A DNA stretch of 64,000 nucleotides from Aminobacter ciceronei (GTDB taxonomy: Bacteria; Pseudomonadota; Alphaproteobacteria; Rhizobiales; Rhizobiaceae), in the NCBI RefSeq assembly GCF_014138625.1, contig NZ_JACJHY010000002.1, positions 62,001 to 126,000 of the forward strand, given 5' to 3'. This document shows, piece after piece, positions 42,997 to 49,659 of this stretch (position 1 is its first letter; each line of letters opens with the position of its first letter). The notes under the pieces were generated by a model that was given only the letters and a program-made list of their open reading frames with translations, made no database searches and was not told where the DNA came from. Made by a program: the position numbers and the translations under genes.

Positions 42997-44325
42997 ATGC
43001 GTCTGTCGCGCTATTTCCTGCCCATCCTGAAAGAGAATCCCCGCGAGGCGGAGATCGTTTCGCACCGGTTGATGTTGCGCGCGGGCATGATCAGGCAGCA
43101 GGGCCAGGGCAGCTTCTCCTGGTTGCCGCTGGGCAAGCGTGTGCTCGACAAGATCTGCCGCATCGTGCGCGAGGAGCAGGACCGGGCAGGGGCGCTGGAA
43201 ATCCTGATGCCGACCATCCAGTCGGCCGAGCTGTGGCGCGAAAGCGGCCGCTATGACGACTACGGCAAGGAGATGCTGCGCATCAAGGATCGCAACGAAC
43301 GCGACATGCTGTTCGGCCCGACCAATGAAGAGATGGTCACGGAAATCTTCCGGTCCTACGTCAAGTCCTACAAGGATCTGCCGCTCAACCTGTACCACAT
43401 ACAGTGGAAGTTCCGCGACGAGATGCGTCCGCGCTTCGGCGTCATGCGTTCGCGCGAATTCCTGATGAAGGACGCCTACTCGTTCGACCTCGACTACGAA
43501 GGCGCGAAAGCTGCCTACAACCGCATGTTCGTTTCCTACCTGCGCACCTTCACCCGGATGGGCCTGCAGGCGATCCCGATGCGCGCCGACACCGGCCCGA
43601 TCGGCGGCGATCTCAGCCACGAATTCATCATCCTGGCCGAGACGGGCGAAAGCCAGGTGTTCTGCCACCGCGACTACCTTGCTTTACCTGTGCCGGGCGC
43701 TGCGACCGATTTCGCCAATGACGGCGAGATCGACGGCATCGTCAAGCAGTGGACGACGCCTTATGCGGCAACCGAAGAGATGCATGACGAGGCCGCCTGG
43801 GCGGCGGTGCCCGAGGCCGACAAGGTATCGGCGCGCGGCATCGAGGTCGGCCACATCTTTCACTTCGGCGAGAAATATTCCAAGCCCATGGGCGCCAAGG
43901 TCATGGGCCCCGACGGCAAGGAGCATTTCGTGTCGATGGGCTCCTACGGCATCGGCCCGAGCCGCCTGATCGCAGCGATCATCGAGGCAAGCCACGACGA
44001 GAACGGCATCATCTGGCCGGAGGCCGTGGCGCCGTTCGACATCGGCCTGATCAACATGAAGGTCGGCGACGCCGACTGCGACCGCATCTGCGACGAGCTC
44101 TACAAGGCGTTCGAAGCGGCCGGCAAGGACGTGCTCTATGACGATACCGACCAGCGCGCGGGCGGCAAGTTCGCGACCGCCGATCTGATCGGCCTGCCCT
44201 GGCAGGTCATCGTCGGCCCGCGTGGTGCGGCTGCCGGCGAGGTCGAGATCAAGAACCGCAAGTCCGGCGAGCGCCTGACGCTGCCGGTGGCCGAGGCGCT
44301 GGCCAAGCTGGGCGCCAACGCATGA
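42997..44325 (+). CDS. proS: Prolyl-tRNA synthetase
   Basis: A class-II synthetase charging tRNA-Pro, 442 residues, the short form without the editing insertion, as in other alphaproteobacteria. Motif 1 lies around residues 55-75 ([16 protein letters not shown]), motif 2 has [25 protein letters not shown] (about 137-161), and motif 3 [14 protein letters not shown] (about 311-324). I prefer the ATG at 42997 (MRLSRYFLP) because that is the family start and because the decayed second copy retains exactly this ATG; ATG 42985 adds four residues. The stop overlaps lolC (ATGA). Confidence 0.95.
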
Positions 44326-45608
44326 ACCAGGCGGTGGCGGCGAAACCGGCAGGGGCTGGGCCTTTCTCGGTGTTCGAACGCATGGTGGCATGGCGCTACC
44401 TGCGTTCGAAGCGCAAGGAGACGGTGATTTCCGTCATCGCTTCGATCTCCTTCCTTGGCATCATGCTGGGTGTCGCCACGCTGATCGTGGTGATGGCGGT
44501 GATGAACGGTTTTCGCGCCGAGCTGCTGACCCGCATCCTTGGCGTCAACGGCCATCTTGTCGTAACCGCGACCGACACGCCGCTCGAGGATTATGCAGCG
44601 GTCGCTGACCGCATCAATGGCGTGGCGGGCGTGAAATACGCGATCCCGCTGGTCGAGGGCCAGGTGCTTGCCCAGGGCAATGTCGGCGCCGGTTCCGGCG
44701 CACTGGTGCGTGGCATCAGGGGCGACGACTTGGGCAAGGTGACCTTGGTCGCCAACAACATCAGGCAGGGTTCGATCGTTGGCTTCGACCAGGGCGAGGG
44801 CGTGGTGATCGGCAAGCGCATGGCCGAGAACATGGGGCTGGTGCTGGGCGATTCCATCCGGCTGATTTCGCCCGACGGCGACGTGACACCGATGGGAACG
44901 ACGCCGAGAGCCAAGGCTTATCCGATCACCGGCATCTTCGAAGTCGGCATGTCGGAATATGACAGCTCGATTGTGTTCATGCCGCTCAACGAGGCGCAGC
45001 TCTACTTCAACTCCGAAGGCAAGGTCGGCTCGATCGAGATTTATGTCGACAATCCCGACAATGTCGACGCGCTGAAACCCAAGGTCGAGGAAGCGGCGCA
45101 ACGGCCGATCTTCCTCACCGACTGGCGCGAGCGCAACCAGACCTTCTTTTCGGCGCTGCAGGTCGAGCGCAACGTCATGTTCATGATCCTGACGCTGATC
45201 GTGCTGGTGGCGGCGCTCAACATCATTTCCGGCCTGATCATGCTGGTGAAGGACAAGGGCCACGACATCGCCATCCTGCGCACGATGGGGGCGACACGCG
45301 GCGCGGTTATGCGAATCTTCCTGATGACGGGAGCTGCCATCGGCATGACCGGCACGCTCGCCGGCGTGCTGCTCGGCGTCGTCATCTGCCTCAATGTCGA
45401 GCGCATCAGGCAGTTCTTCTCCTGGCTGTCGGGCACCGTGCTGTTCAACCCCGAGCTCTATTTCCTCAGCCAGCTGCCGGCCAAGATGGACATGAGCGAG
45501 ACCATCTCTGTTGTGCTGATGGCACTGGTGCTGTCGTTCCTGGCGACGCTGTTTCCGGCATGGCGGGCGGCAACGCTCGATCCGGTCGAAGCCCTGAGGT
45601 ACGAATGA
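44322..45608 (+). CDS. lolC: Lipoprotein-releasing ABC transporter permease LolC (copy 1)
   Basis: A 428-residue inner-membrane permease that extracts outer-membrane lipoproteins and passes them to LolA, driven by LolD. One N-terminal helix (after [17 protein letters not shown]), a periplasmic domain of about residues 50-270, then three C-terminal helices of the FtsX type. [21 protein letters not shown] is the coupling region. Start overlaps proS and stop overlaps lolD. It is paired in the window with a second copy (46679-47965). Confidence 0.93.
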
Positions 45609-46291
45609 TGGGCATCGAGCATGTCATCGAGCTCAAGGGCGTCGAGCGCCACTATGAGCAGGGTTCGCGCAAGCTGACGATCCTCAACAATGCCAGCTTC
45701 GCGCTGAAGCCCGGCGAGATGGTGGCGCTGGTGGCGCCTTCGGGTGCCGGCAAGTCGACGCTGCTGCACACAGCAGGGCTGCTCGAGCGGCCCGACGCCG
45801 GCGACGTCATCCTGAATGGGCGTGCCTGCGGGCGGCTGTCGGACGATGAGCGTACCGCCATCCGTCGCAACGACGTCGGCTTCGTCTATCAGTTCCATCA
45901 CCTGCTGCCCGAATTCTCCGCGCAGGAGAATGTGATGATGCCGCAACTGGTGAAGGGCCTGTCGCGCAAAGAAGCGGCCGAGCGTGCCGGTATGCTGCTC
46001 GACTATATGAAGATCGGCAAGCGGGCGCAGCATAGGCCGTCGGAGCTGTCAGGCGGCGAACAGCAGCGTGTGGCGATTGCACGCGCGGTGGCCAATGCGC
46101 CGCTGGTGCTTTTGGCCGACGAGCCGACCGGCAATCTCGATCCGGTGACGGCGGGTTATGTCTTCGACGCGCTTTCAGCACTTGTGCGGCAGTCGGGCTT
46201 GGCGGCCCTGATCGCCACCCACAACCACGAGCTTGCAGGACGCATGGATCGTCGCGTTACGCTTTCCGAAGGCAAGATCGTGCCCTTGTAG
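45605..46291 (+). CDS. lolD: Lipoprotein-releasing system ATP-binding protein LolD
   Basis: A 228-residue ABC ATPase. Walker [12 protein letters not shown] (about residues 43-53), the LolD signature [18 protein letters not shown] (about 144-161), Walker [13 protein letters not shown] and the switch ATHNHELA are present. It powers LolC-type permeases. The start is ATG 45605, overlapping lolC, or 45608. It is the only intact lolD here, so both LolC copies may share it. Confidence 0.94.
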
Positions 46292-46532
46292 GGCTGCCTT
46301 TCTTCCGTCCACGGTGTCTCCAGAAGCGAGCTGCTGCCCGCTTCGCATCTCGTGCGGTCCGTTACCGCTGGTGGTCCGCGGCCCTTCTCACAAGGCAGGC
46401 TAACGCGGCCGCATGCTCTGCGGTTGCCTCGCGCCCGCGAGTTTCCATTCCGCCACGAAATGGCTATGAAGCCTGTGCACTGAAGCTGTGCGCCGATTCC
46501 GGCGCAACGTTCCTCATTTTTCGGACCAGCCC

Positions 46533-46682
46533 ATGCGTTTGTCGTGCAGTTTCCTGCCCCGGCAGGTCATCGTCGGACCGCGTCGTGTTGCCGCCGGCGA
46601 GGTCGAAATCAACCGCAAGAGCGACACGCGCGAAACGGTGCGACTGGCCAGCACCCTCCAGCGCCTGGGCGTTGCCGCATGA
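46533..46682 (+). pseudogene. proS remnant with an internal deletion, still an open frame
   Basis: Codons 1-9 (MRLSCSFLP, compare MRLSRYFLP) are fused in frame to the C-terminal end of ProS (RQVIVGPRRVAAGEVEI..., compare [17 protein letters not shown]). Roughly 390 codons are missing, including all catalytic motifs. The frame is still open for 49 residues and its stop overlaps the lolC2 start as ATGA, as in the intact copy. It cannot be a synthetase; its likely remaining use is to carry ribosomes to lolC2. Confidence 0.88.
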
Positions 46683-47965
46683 GCCAGACAAGCGCAGCCA
46701 AGCCGGCAGGCGCCGGACCTTTTTCGACTTTCGAGCGCATGGTGGCGTGGCGCTATCTGCGCTCGCGTCGCAACGAAACGATGGTATCGGTGATCGCCTC
46801 GATCTCTTTCCTTGGCATCATGCTGGGTGTCGCCACGCTGATTGTCGTGATGGCGGTGTTGAACGGTTTCCGAGCGGAGTTGCTTTCGCGGATTCTTGGC
46901 ATCAACGGCCATCTCATCGTCACGCCGGTCGATTTGCCGCTGGAGGACTATGCCGAGCTTGCCAAGCGGATCAATGGTGTCCCAGGCGTCAAATACGCCA
47001 TTCCAATGGTCGAAGGTCAGGTGCTGGCACGGGGCAATGTCGGCGCCGGTTCCGGCGCGCTGGTGCGCGGCATCCGCGGAGAGGATCTCGGCAAGATCAC
47101 GCTGGTTGCCAATAACATCAAACAGGGGGGCATCGCCGGTTTCGATACGGCCGGCGGCGTCGCAATCGGCAGCCGCATGGCTAGGAATCACGGCCTGGCG
47201 CTGGGCGACATCATTACGGTGATCGCGCCTGACGGCGATGTCAGTCAGCTTGGCACGACGCCACGCCTGCAAGGCTATGCGGTCACGGCGATCTTCGAAG
47301 TCGGCATGTCGGAATACGACGCCTCGATCGTGTTCATGCCGTTGTCTGAAGCGCAGACGTACTTCAACTCCGAAGGCAAGGCGCAGAGCCTCGAGGTCTA
47401 TCTCGACGATCCCGACAATGTTGACGCGATCAGGTCCAAGGTGGAGGAGGCGGTACAGCGGCCGATCTTCCTGACCGACTGGCGCGAGCGCAACCAGACC
47501 TTCTTTTCGGCGCTGCAGGTCCAGCGCAACGTCATGTTCATGATCCTGACGCTGATCGTGCTGGTGGCGGCGCTCAACATCATTTCCGGCCTGATCATGC
47601 TGGTGAAGGACAAGGGCCACGACATCGCCATCCTGCGCACGATGGGGGCGACACGCGGTGCGGTGATGCGCATCTTCCTGATGACGGGAGCTGCCATCGG
47701 CATGACCGGCACGCTCGCCGGCGTGATGCTCGGCGTGGTCATCTGCCTCAATGTCGAGCGCATCAGGCAGTTCTTTTCCTGGCTGTCGGGTACCGTGCTG
47801 TTCAACCCCGAGCTCTATTTCCTCAGCCAGCTGCCGGCCAAGATGGATGTCGGCGAGACCATCTCGGTGGTGCTGATGGCACTGGTGCTGTCGTTCCTGG
47901 CGACGTTGGTTCCGGCATGGCGGGCGGCCGCGCTCGATCCGGTCGAAGCCCTGAGGTATGAATGA
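46679..47965 (+). CDS. Lipoprotein-releasing ABC transporter permease LolC (copy 2)
   Basis: A 428-residue paralogue of the permease at 44322, of equal length. Residues from about 255 to the end ([18 protein letters not shown] onward) are nearly identical, with about 20 base differences in the last 505 bases. The first helix and periplasmic domain differ more (for example VTPVDLPLEDYAELAKRI against [18 protein letters not shown]). All features of a working FtsX-type permease are kept and there is no frameshift. It lacks its own lolD. It may form a heterodimer with LolC1, similar to LolC/LolE of gammaproteobacteria; that is inference. Confidence 0.9.
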   Translation: MSQTSAAKPAGAGPFSTFERMVAWRYLRSRRNETMVSVIASISFLGIMLGVATLIVVMAVLNGFRAELLSRILGINGHLIVTPVDLPLEDYAELAKRINGVPGVKYAIPMVEGQVLARGNVGAGSGALVRGIRGEDLGKITLVANNIKQGGIAGFDTAGGVAIGSRMARNHGLALGDIITVIAPDGDVSQLGTTPRLQGYAVTAIFEVGMSEYDASIVFMPLSEAQTYFNSEGKAQSLEVYLDDPDNVDAIRSKVEEAVQRPIFLTDWRERNQTFFSALQVQRNVMFMILTLIVLVAALNIISGLIMLVKDKGHDIAILRTMGATRGAVMRIFLMTGAAIGMTGTLAGVMLGVVICLNVERIRQFFSWLSGTVLFNPELYFLSQLPAKMDVGETISVVLMALVLSFLATLVPAWRAAALDPVEALRYE

Positions 47966-48012
47966 TGGGCATCGAGCATGTCATCGAGCTCAAGGGCGTC
48001 GAGCGCCACTGA
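47962..48012 (+). pseudogene. 16-codon lolD fragment
   Basis: ATG ATG GGC ... CAC TGA encodes [16 protein letters not shown], exactly the first 16 residues of LolD, with the ATGA overlap to lolC2 kept. After GAGCGCCAC the sequence stops matching lolD and hits TGA. This marks the right-hand end of the duplicated block. Confidence 0.9.
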
Positions 48013-48194
48013 CGCTTGCTGAAGACGCCCGGCGCTTGAGCCGGACGAATCTGTTCTCAACCGCTGTCCCTATCGCCTGATGACGCCGTTGCCTGTTCGT
48101 TAACGGGCGAAGGTCTCGGTTCGCCTGGATAAACCCTTCATTTACTGTCGAATCGGTTGCGGCGAGTGGCTGCTGCCGGATGCAATGGCTCGCG

Positions 48195-48229
48195 TTGACA
48201 TTTGAACAAAAATAGAACAAATTACGAAC
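48195..48229 (+). promoter_or_regulatory. Promoter with two overlapping SOS (LexA) boxes
   Basis: TTGACA (48195-48200) is followed by GAAC at 48204-48207, 48215-48218 and 48226-48229, each separated by exactly seven bases. GAAC-N7-GAAC is the alphaproteobacterial LexA site, so three half-sites form two overlapping operators across the spacer and -10 region. The gene at 48252 should be repressed by LexA and induced by DNA damage. Confidence 0.8.
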
Positions 48230-48251
48230 ATATTAAAAACAGGAGCAACAG

Positions 48252-48338
48252 ATGACCGAGCTGGTACAGGATGTCATTTCGATGGTCTGCATGAGCACCT
48301 TCCTTGTCACCATGGCTGTGTGGATCGGCGCACTCTGA
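48252..48338 (+). CDS. 28-residue SOS-controlled membrane peptide (unknown)
   Basis: A small open frame starting ATG ACC GAG and ending GGC GCA CTC TGA. AGGAG lies six bases before the ATG. The peptide has a short acidic N-terminus (MTELVQDVISM) and a hydrophobic C-terminal stretch of about 18 residues (CMSTFLVTMAVWIGAL) able to cross the inner membrane once. The triple GAAC promoter upstream gives strong support that it is expressed and damage-inducible. Caulobacter SidA, a 29-residue SOS-induced inner-membrane division inhibitor, is an analogue in size, topology and control; no sequence homology is claimed. Too short for ordinary gene callers. Confidence 0.75.
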   Translation: MTELVQDVISMVCMSTFLVTMAVWIGAL

Positions 48339-48506
48339 TTGGAGTGCCTGATGAGCAGCGCGAGCTGAATCCCAACCTGAAACAGGGCACCGGGTTAACT
48401 CGATGCCGACACCGTGCGGGCTGAAATCGCCAAGACGGAAAAGACTGAGCCAGCGCCGCCTGGCGCAAAATGAGTTGAATCAAGCGCGGATCGCAGCTGC
48501 CGCGCG

Positions 48507-48531
48507 GGAAGGCGGCCTCAGGCCGTCTTCC
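48507..48531 (-). terminator. Hairpin overlapping the lipB stop codon
   Basis: GGAAGGCGGCC-TCA-GGCCGTCTTCC is an 11-bp stem (one G-T pair) spanning the lipB stop. No T-run follows, so it could be a weak terminator or a 3' stabilising hairpin. Confidence 0.4.
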
Positions 48532-49258
48532 GGACAGCGGTCGCGGTGGTTTCGGCCGGCCCGAATATCTCTTCGAAGGCAGTTTTAAGCGCGACATCCA
48601 GGTCATCAATGGTCACCGGTAGGCCAAGGTCGACGAGGCTGGTAACGCCGTGGTCGGTGACGCCGCACGGCACGATGCCGGAGAAATGGCCGAGCTCCGG
48701 TTCGACGTTGATGGCGATGCCGTGGAAACTGACCCAGCGGCGAAGACGGATGCCGATGGCTGCGATCTTGTCTTCCGCCGGCGAGCCGTCAGGCAGGGCC
48801 GGGCGGTCGGGCCGCACCACCCAGACGCCGACGCGGTCCTCGCGCCGTTCGCCCTTCACGTTGAAGGCGGCAAGCGCCGAAATGATCCAGGCTTCGAGTG
48901 CCGCAACGAAGGCGCGGACGTCCTCGCGCCTTCGCTTGAGGTCGAGCATGACATAGGCCACGCGTTGGCCGGGCCCATGATAGGTGTATTCGCCACCTCG
49001 CCCGGTCTTGAAGACGGGAAACCGGTCGGGCTCGACAAGGTCCTGTTCCTGGGCGCTGGTGCCGGCGGTGTAAACAGGCGGGTGCTCGACAAGCCAGACC
49101 ATCTCGCCTGATGTGCCCTGGCGAATCGCATCTGCGCGCTGTTCCATGAAGGCGAGCGCCTGATCGTAGGGCGTCAGGCCTGGTTCGATTCGCCATTCGA
49201 CCGGTGCTGAACCGGGAAGGGCAAGAAACGACGTGGCGATCAGGCTGCGTTCGGTCAT
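48518..49258 (-). CDS. lipB: Octanoyltransferase LipB
   Basis: An enzyme of about 246 residues that moves octanoyl groups from acyl carrier protein to lipoyl domains. [14 protein letters not shown] (about residues 55-68), the conserved [22 protein letters not shown] (about 84-105), the catalytic lysine in [10 protein letters not shown] (about 161) and cysteine in [14 protein letters not shown] (about 194) are all present. The start at 49258 ([10 protein letters not shown]) gives the family length; an ATG at 49351 with AAGGGA upstream would add 31 residues and cannot be excluded. Confidence 0.93.
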
Positions 49259-49467
49259 TCTGGGGGTCCGTTCGTCGACCTGATATGGCGGCTTGGGGAT
49301 AAAACGTCCAGTGGTCAGGCTTAGAAAGCCGGCTATCGCAGCCTCCGTCATGCGGCTTCCCTTGGGGTATGCAAGAATGATGGACGAATATCGCACAGGG
49401 CGCTTGTTTCCCCGGAAACGATTTGCTACATGCCGCGAGCCGGTTCGGACCGGCCCTTCGTGACAGT

Positions 49468-49552
49468 GCGGTCGTGGCGGAATTGGTAGACGCGCAGCGT
49501 TGAGGTCGCTGTGGGGCAACCCGTGGAAGTTCGAGTCTTCTCGACCGCACCA
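49468..49552 (+). tRNA. tRNA-Leu (anticodon GAG)
   Basis: Acceptor arms GCGGTCG and CGACCGC close the cloverleaf, with encoded ACCA at 49549-49552. The D arm has TGGCGGAATTGGTAGACGC, typical of class-II leucine tRNAs. The anticodon stem CAGCG/CGCTG carries loop TTGAGGT, anticodon GAG (reads CUC/CUU). A long variable arm (TGTGGGGCAACCCGTG) and T-loop TTCGAGT follow. 85 nt. A small hairpin AGCGGA-AATA-TCCGCT lies just downstream. Confidence 0.96.
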
Positions 49553-49659
49553 GTCACTCCTAAGCGGAAATATCCGCTTCACCGGCCAGACGTGCCGGCA
49601 GGCTGAAAAGCCGGAAACTCCTCAATCATCAAACACGTGCAGGATGTTGACGGCCGTTT

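Follow-up and report, generated by a model that had tools for sequence, protein, structure and literature searches.

A conserved 28-codon gene behind a LexA-type operator in Aminobacter ciceronei and other rhizobia: a probable orthologue of Caulobacter sidA

Gene order and signals at the locus

The window, by which we mean the whole stretch of 64,000 nucleotides of Aminobacter ciceronei DNA that was analysed (contig NZ_JACJHY010000002.1), carries a very short peptide gene between a duplicated block of lolC- and lolD-type genes and a lipoyl ligase gene on the opposite strand. The features of this region are as follows:

44322..45608, + strand: lolC/lolE-type permease, copy 1 (MacB_PCD and FtsX domains)
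45605..46291, + strand: lolD, ABC ATPase (ABC_tran)
46676..47965, + strand: lolC/lolE-type permease, copy 2 of the tandem duplication (MacB_PCD and FtsX)
47962..48012, + strand: vestige of another lolD copy, ended by a stop after 16 codons; the first 16 codons are identical to those of the intact lolD
48195..48200, + strand: TTGACA, candidate -35 element, read in the sequence
48204..48218, + strand: putative LexA-type operator 1, GAACAAAAATAGAAC, with GAAC at 48204 and 48215
48215..48229, + strand: putative second register, GAACAAATTACGAAC, with GAAC at 48215 and 48226; the middle GAAC is common with operator 1
48241..48245, + strand: AGGAG ribosome-binding site, read in the sequence
48252..48338, + strand: sidA-like gene of 28 aa, MTELVQDVISMVCMSTFLVTMAVWIGAL; ATG at 48252, stop codon at 48336-48338
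48518..49582, - strand: lipoyl ligase gene (lipB), downstream (LplA-B_cat)

The lolC/lolD duplication occupies positions 44322-48012 and leaves the 16-codon lolD stub ahead of the peptide gene; the two lolC-type permeases appear strongly alike by eye. All of the sequence elements claimed for this place in a preliminary description, which had been made from the DNA letters and their open reading frames, are present at the positions listed above. A consensus scan of positions 48000-48520 gave no sigma-70 pair, which suggests that the -10 element is poor or unusual. Judged by hydropathy, the one means by which transmembrane helices of the peptides were assigned in this study, the rhizobial peptide has a short polar N-terminus followed by a single hydrophobic helix. 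The window peptide matches none of the Pfam models and the peptide family none of the NCBIfam models, so that annotation by those libraries would overlook it.

Conservation of the peptide gene and its operator

The peptide is present in 10 of the 10 genomes of the genus that were searched (the window genome among them), and a sample of the family gave a match at E<=1 in 91 of 199 genomes, representing 54 of 109 genera. Ninety-seven loci were read (L009-L105; 10 of the genus and 87 of the family), with 16 weaker family rows (E 0.08-0.93) being left out, and exactly 28 residues are encoded by 90 of them. The remaining seven comprise a boxed copy of 30 aa (L043), three prophage copies (L082, L084 and L089) and three loci (L096, L101 and L105) that may not belong to the peptide family. 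Among the 10 genus members the dN/dS of the peptide gene is 0.12, while pairwise differences at codon positions 1, 2 and 3 across the 90 loci amount to 0.37, 0.15 and 0.56, respectively, the third position being the most variable. In an alignment of 56 of the 74 distinct 28-aa peptides, from which near-duplicates and a prophage copy had been removed by hand, every row has M1 and F17, while D7, V8, S10 and A22 are each kept in at least 90% of rows; no conserved face of the helix was significant (7744 of 20000 shuffles were as strong). Of the 90 relatives of 28 aa, 74 have TTGAC somewhere between -100 and -30, and GGAG-like cores were seen at similar spacing in many relatives, by eye and uncounted. 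The peptide gene is real, conserved and under purifying selection: the start codon, ribosome-binding site and reading frame, on whose conservation the preliminary description had made its case depend, were checked in the relatives and found to hold.

The operator is conserved together with the frame. GAAC-N7-GAAC lies within 100 bp upstream of the start codon in 84 of the 90 relatives of 28 aa, the first GAAC being most often at -48 (37 loci). In a test limited to the 87 loci with 600 bp of upstream sequence, the pair was found in 82 of the 87 nearest 100-bp bins and in none of the 435 bins at 100-600 bp, with 0 of 522 bins for the control pattern CAAG-N7-CAAG and 4 of 522 for the opposite orientation GTTC-N7-GTTC (3 of them in the first bin). 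The pattern shows no excess in the window (2 occurrences against 1.6 expected from shuffles) or in the whole genome (162 against 166 for the reversed pattern); counting alone therefore proves nothing, and it is conservation that lifts the pair above chance. The six relatives without an exact pair are L064, whose contig ends 11 bp upstream, the prophage-like L076, and L027, L066, L086 and L092, which have single GAAC sites near the expected place. The spacer of the 84 pairs is 88% A/T, and AAAAATA is its commonest form (19 loci).

The preliminary description had emphasized three evenly spaced half-sites and had read them as two overlapping operators, from which it predicted that repression would be tight and cooperative. 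The third GAAC is genuine, though clade-limited: it is present in the window, in 10 of 10 genus members and in the Sinorhizobium meliloti locus, and is not general, being found in 26 of the 84 paired loci (a random 4-mer would be met at about 1 in 256) and absent from the other 58. The proposed cooperativity fares less well, since the middle half-site is common to both registers and two dimers that need two half-sites each would be unable to use it at once; the registers should compete, not cooperate, if each dimer has that need.

Boxes of the same type elsewhere in the window genome offer a comparison. Among the 100 genome places listed out of the 162, the identical 15-mer GAACAAAAATAGAAC occurs once more, preceding a gene with an IMS domain (ImuB-like); an open reading frame without a Pfam match lies between, and its frame spans the box. 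Two other boxes sit between ruvC and ruvA. Seventeen boxed regions were taken, mostly for their A/T-rich spacers, and the open reading frames of four were put to Pfam: two regions (L266 and L271) gave RuvC, RuvA and IMS, and those of the other two (L263 and L264) had no Pfam match. Through homology to known SOS genes, the imuB-like and ruv boxes may be taken as positive controls. The description of a conserved, LexA-boxed, single-TM micropeptide is borne out by these comparisons among relatives, and the 28-codon gene appears to be a well-supported SOS gene that lies outside the family libraries searched.

With regard to gene order, 66 of the 97 loci have lolC or lolD signatures upstream, 11 have dnaE downstream (in flanks of 1.2-1.5 kb), 11 have lipB downstream on the other strand, and 24 have none of lolC/lolD, dnaE and lipB within the flank examined. 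The order can be given by name for Sinorhizobium meliloti (CP090106.1, labelled pSymB), where it reads proline-tRNA ligase (proS), lolC, lolD, a GAAC triple with a 28-aa peptide (MADFVRDLAAFASMSLFIVSISVIALGL), and dnaE; the source collection lists no gene in this lolD-dnaE interval and itself declares its gene table incomplete. The window genome retains the lolCD side; its dnaE lies elsewhere (G000:C35:401-1258), close to the end of a contig, and the approximately 300 bp available before this dnaE contain no exact box.

Relation to Caulobacter SidA and occurrence in the class

SidA is described as a 29-aa, SOS-induced inner-membrane protein (PMC4211646) encoded by CCNA_02004 (PMC10769358), with CCNA_02005 given as an inosine-uridine nucleoside hydrolase (PMC3667746) and the replicative dnaE of Caulobacter as CC1926 (PMC1839093). 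Genomes of Caulobacter sp. were reached through RsaA, and dnaE was then located in four of them; all four carry a boxed 29-aa peptide about 125 bp before the dnaE start, with the box GAACATCTTGTGAAC 64 bp upstream of the peptide ATG. In one of these loci (L259) the peptide follows lolD; another, L256, has an inosine-uridine nucleoside hydrolase for its other neighbour. This peptide fits the published facts on SidA, the comparison being with the published description and not with the C. crescentus record. A further sample, 29 of 54 Caulobacteraceae genomes with a dnaE match, gave a hydrophobic peptide with a ribosome-binding site at 27 of 29 loci (the box being exact in 17 of them and off by one mismatch in 10), and the 29-aa form is possible at 20 of these 27. 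These peptides were picked by locus, box and hydropathy, and not by similarity to the window peptide. Three of the four Caulobacter sp. peptides (the fourth duplicates one of these) and the 20 further ones, chosen as 29-aa forms and with forms of 26, 28 and 30 aa excluded, made up a profile of 23 rows, and 21 of the 23 were used for HMM scoring.

Comparison of the 56-row rhizobial profile with the 23-row profile by hhalign gave a probability of 87% and an E of 3.7e-6, with columns 1-20 aligned without gaps, for peptides from Caulobacter sp. and related genomes and not from the C. crescentus record. When the columns of the whole set were permuted, 0 of 1940 permutations (1940 of 2000 being scorable) reached the observed mean. 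Two of the 21 Caulobacteraceae peptides scored 20.9 and 20.7 bits against the rhizobial HMM, with 0 of 3000 shuffles as good for each, and the other 19 had scores from 3.7 to 11.6 bits, which 2-171 of 3000 shuffles matched or exceeded. The Caulobacter sp. peptide alone reached 6.9 bits, a score equalled by 37 of 5000 full shuffles and by 51 of 5000 shuffles that keep the hydrophobic pattern. Weak Pfam matches to PsaJ in 3 of the 23 Caulobacteraceae peptides (best 0.0013) were taken as chance transmembrane similarity and rejected.

Residue by residue, both groups have an acidic residue at position 7 (D/E in 74 of 74 distinct rhizobial and 22 of 23 Caulobacteraceae peptides), Phe17 (74 of 74 and 23 of 23), a small residue 13 and a similar core (SLVSVS and ALVSVA), in addition to a nearly equal length (28 versus 29 residues), a LexA-type box just upstream, a single hydrophobic helix behind a short polar N-terminus and the order lolD-peptide-dnaE in relatives (S. 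meliloti and the Caulobacter locus L259). They differ in that 4 of 28 residues are identical in register between the window and Caulobacter sp. peptides, that the C-terminal third is unlike and unaligned between the profiles, that the rhizobial peptides are acidic (net charge -2 in 48 of 56, range -1 to -3 in 56 of 56) whereas the Caulobacteraceae peptides are neutral or basic (0 to +2), and that dnaE is not adjacent in the window genome. The case for orthology with SidA rests on the profiles, the locus and the box, with single sequences matching weakly, and orthology is the simplest reading of the profile match, length, operator and locus combined. This goes against the earlier statement that the peptide has no sequence relation to SidA. 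Titles and abstract openings in the literature gave no report of rhizobial SidA homologues, which does not establish their absence in print.

The peptide may extend beyond these two groups. In the order, the rhizobial profile was searched against 297 genomes and gave matches at E<=1 in 157, mostly weak, of which the best 22 were read (L111-L132). An exact GAAC-N7-GAAC is present in the upstream stretch examined at 16 of these 22 loci, namely 15 of 19 in other families and 1 of 3 in the window's family; at L112, L114, L122 and L127 the true start was masked by a long frame overlapping it, and the box was therefore sought in the wrong stretch, and L117 and L126 are without a second exact GAAC. 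Six boxed peptides of the order, picked by the same profile, scored 20-29 bits, with 0 of 5000 shuffles as good.

Across the class, the rhizobial profile returned noise outside the window genome (best E 0.0058), and the search was therefore made by locus. The region upstream of dnaE was read in 60 of the 137 class genomes with a dnaE match, mostly larger genomes; 14 of the 60 have an exact box within 1 kb before dnaE and 46 do not. Behind the box, 12 of the 14 have a hydrophobic open reading frame of 31-47 aa (L162, L166, L170, L180, L186, L191, L197, L200, L202, L210, L212 and L213), and at L208 a hydrophobic frame stands behind a box with one mismatch. When 11 of the 12 (all except L197) were scored with the rhizobial HMM, the number of 5000 shuffles as good was 14 for L162, 54 for L170, 133 for L186, 396 for L200 and at least 777 for the other seven. 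In the family of G498, box and peptide are found at 18 of 30 loci, and for three of its peptides the shuffles as good numbered 326, 396 (this peptide being from the L200 genome) and 1420 out of 5000. Sequence homology of the boxed peptides across the class to the rhizobial profile is not claimed, most of them being without a clear match to it; the peptides before dnaE may be distant forms of SidA, or may have arisen independently at this position. With 14 boxed loci of 60, 12 of them followed by a hydrophobic frame, SOS-type peptides are thus at home between lolD and dnaE in several lineages, though not throughout the class.

Proposed function, rival readings and phage-borne copies

In our view the gene is probably an orthologue of sidA and would encode a LexA-repressed inhibitor of division in the inner membrane that probably acts on FtsW, so that a division checkpoint factor, as suggested earlier, remains the best functional guess. 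LexA bound to GAAC-N7-GAAC, just behind the -35 region, would keep the gene off; RecA on single-stranded DNA would trigger self-cleavage of LexA, upon which the 28-residue peptide would be made and would insert into the inner membrane as one helix. There, by orthology with SidA, it would bind the septal glycosyltransferase FtsW and hold FtsWI inactive until the damage is repaired. LexA binding, damage induction, membrane insertion, the FtsW target and division arrest are what we infer for the rhizobial peptide from sequence comparison. SidA itself is reported to bind FtsW and block division, and of the substitutions in FtsW, A31K is reported to suppress SidA, and F145L and A246T to suppress both SidA and DidA, the latter two being read as hyperactive (PMC4211646). 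The FtsW of the window genome has A31, F145 and A246, as at these suppressor positions in a numbering that fits the Caulobacter sp. FtsW; of two other relatives compared, one carries T at position 31, and 145 and 246 lie within conserved stretches. SEDS proteins at E<=1e-20 number one in each of 3 rhizobial genomes and two in each of 2 Caulobacter sp. genomes. The single FtsW/RodA-type protein of the window genome is L322 (G000:C33:32317-33345).

Other damage-induced inhibitors of division resemble the peptide to varying degrees. DidA (CCNA_03212) of Caulobacter is described as a single-TM division inhibitor induced by damage through DriD and independently of SOS (PMC4211646); it resembles the window peptide in its single transmembrane segment and differs in its 71 aa and SOS-independence, against 28 aa and a LexA-type box. 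YneA of Bacillus, SosA of Staphylococcus and ChiZ of Mycobacterium are given as damage-induced membrane inhibitors of division, which low-confidence models place, together with SidA, on TM7 of FtsW, SidA being on the opposite side (PMC13396833); these proteins are likened to the window peptide by description, not by sequence.

An orthologous gene might nevertheless have come to act on another target, such as FtsN, FtsI, a part of LolCDE or a factor of polar growth, in place of FtsW. We hold this rather unlikely, even though the differences in C-terminal third and net charge between the rhizobial and Caulobacteraceae peptides would suit it, as would the window copy having kept its lolCD neighbour while dnaE is gone, and the count of one SEDS protein against two, which indicates that the division apparatus differs between rhizobia and Caulobacter; the conserved part of the peptide is the very part held in common with SidA, and the suppressor positions of FtsW are identical in the window genome. 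Tiny LexA-controlled membrane peptides are also known from E. coli, namely DinQ and TisB, of which TisB is cationic; both are type I toxins with antisense RNA. A membrane-active SOS toxin of this sort, which would lower membrane potential and growth and leave septation unblocked, would account for the size class, the LexA-type box and the one hydrophobic helix, and yet it seems improbable here: the rhizobial peptides are uniformly acidic, not cationic and amphipathic, no Rfam family was found nearby (positions 47900-48600; a novel RNA would be missed by such a scan), and the locus is common with SidA. By far the least probable reading is that the conserved unit is merely a LexA-controlled leader or small RNA with a functionless peptide. 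The strongly conserved operator and the tiny frame could be explained in this way, but the dN/dS, the pattern of differences over the codon positions and the constancy of 28 codons in 90 of 97 loci speak for a translated product, and the leader or small-RNA reading is already disfavoured.

Copies of the peptide gene are also found in phage-like surroundings. Three copies in prophage regions (L082, L084 and L089) have no LexA-type pair within 100 bp upstream, and a fourth box-less copy, L076, has an integrase and a weak match to a phage repressor in its vicinity:

L310:8001, + strand: phage-borne SidA-like peptide (about 32 aa), L082 region, no LexA-type pair upstream
L311:8001, + strand: phage-borne SidA-like peptide (about 32 aa), L089 region, no LexA-type pair upstream
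L312:6183, - strand: phage-borne SidA-like peptide (about 32 aa), L084 region, no LexA-type pair upstream
L309:8084, - strand: fourth box-less copy, L076, MRDLVQDTCSFVAMGLFLISAAFWIGAL

A scan with PHROGs, which covered the L310 and L311 regions among those of the three prophage copies, found exonuclease VIII, RecT-like and HNH proteins and a repressor on L310, and exonuclease VIII and a repressor on L311. One degenerate DNA pattern led to six viral contigs with copies (L313-L318), which were judged by eye and are not all independent: L314 is probably the same prophage as L082, both contigs being 42186 long, and identical peptides occur in L313 and L316, and likewise in L317 and L318. An open reading frame whose start is the same as that of the exonuclease is seen in L313, L314, L316 and L318 and one beginning like the RecT-like protein in L315, again by eye, and L317 has only 1126 bases. 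Three distinct phage peptides score 41-48 bits against the rhizobial HMM, two of them having 16 and 17 of 28 residues in common with the chromosomal copy L074, and the genomes that hold the four box-less copies have, in addition, a boxed copy on the chromosome (L043, L074, L075 and L079). A tblastn search in phage and plasmid records gave no match, although a record of the plasmid collection holds a diverged relative, which indicates that tblastn misses short, diverged peptides. A phage-borne block of division would be a natural guess.

A wider scenario, which in our judgement is as apt to be wrong as right, is that sidA is an old checkpoint gene of alphaproteobacteria, going back at least to the ancestor of Caulobacteraceae and rhizobia, which is carried along in the lolD-dnaE interval and, at fewer than 35 codons, readily escapes notice, and that temperate phages of rhizobia captured it, dropped the LexA box and placed it in the exonuclease/RecT early region, where lambda has its Kil, so as to block division of the host at a time set by the phage. 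Conservation of SulA beyond the Enterobacteriaceae is described as poor (PMC6851548), and the portions of the literature covered by our search gave no account of how rhizobia stop dividing upon DNA damage. With a named candidate of 28 codons and a predicted target, FtsW, the question of division arrest in rhizobia becomes testable. If the orthology is true, SidA would be no younger than the ancestor that Caulobacteraceae and rhizobia have in common, and comparison would show which residues matter (acidic 7 and Phe17); the breadth of the SidA family and the phage copies would be what surprises specialists. A rhizobial counterpart of SidA suggests that this checkpoint on damaged DNA predates the genus Caulobacter and is not confined to it.
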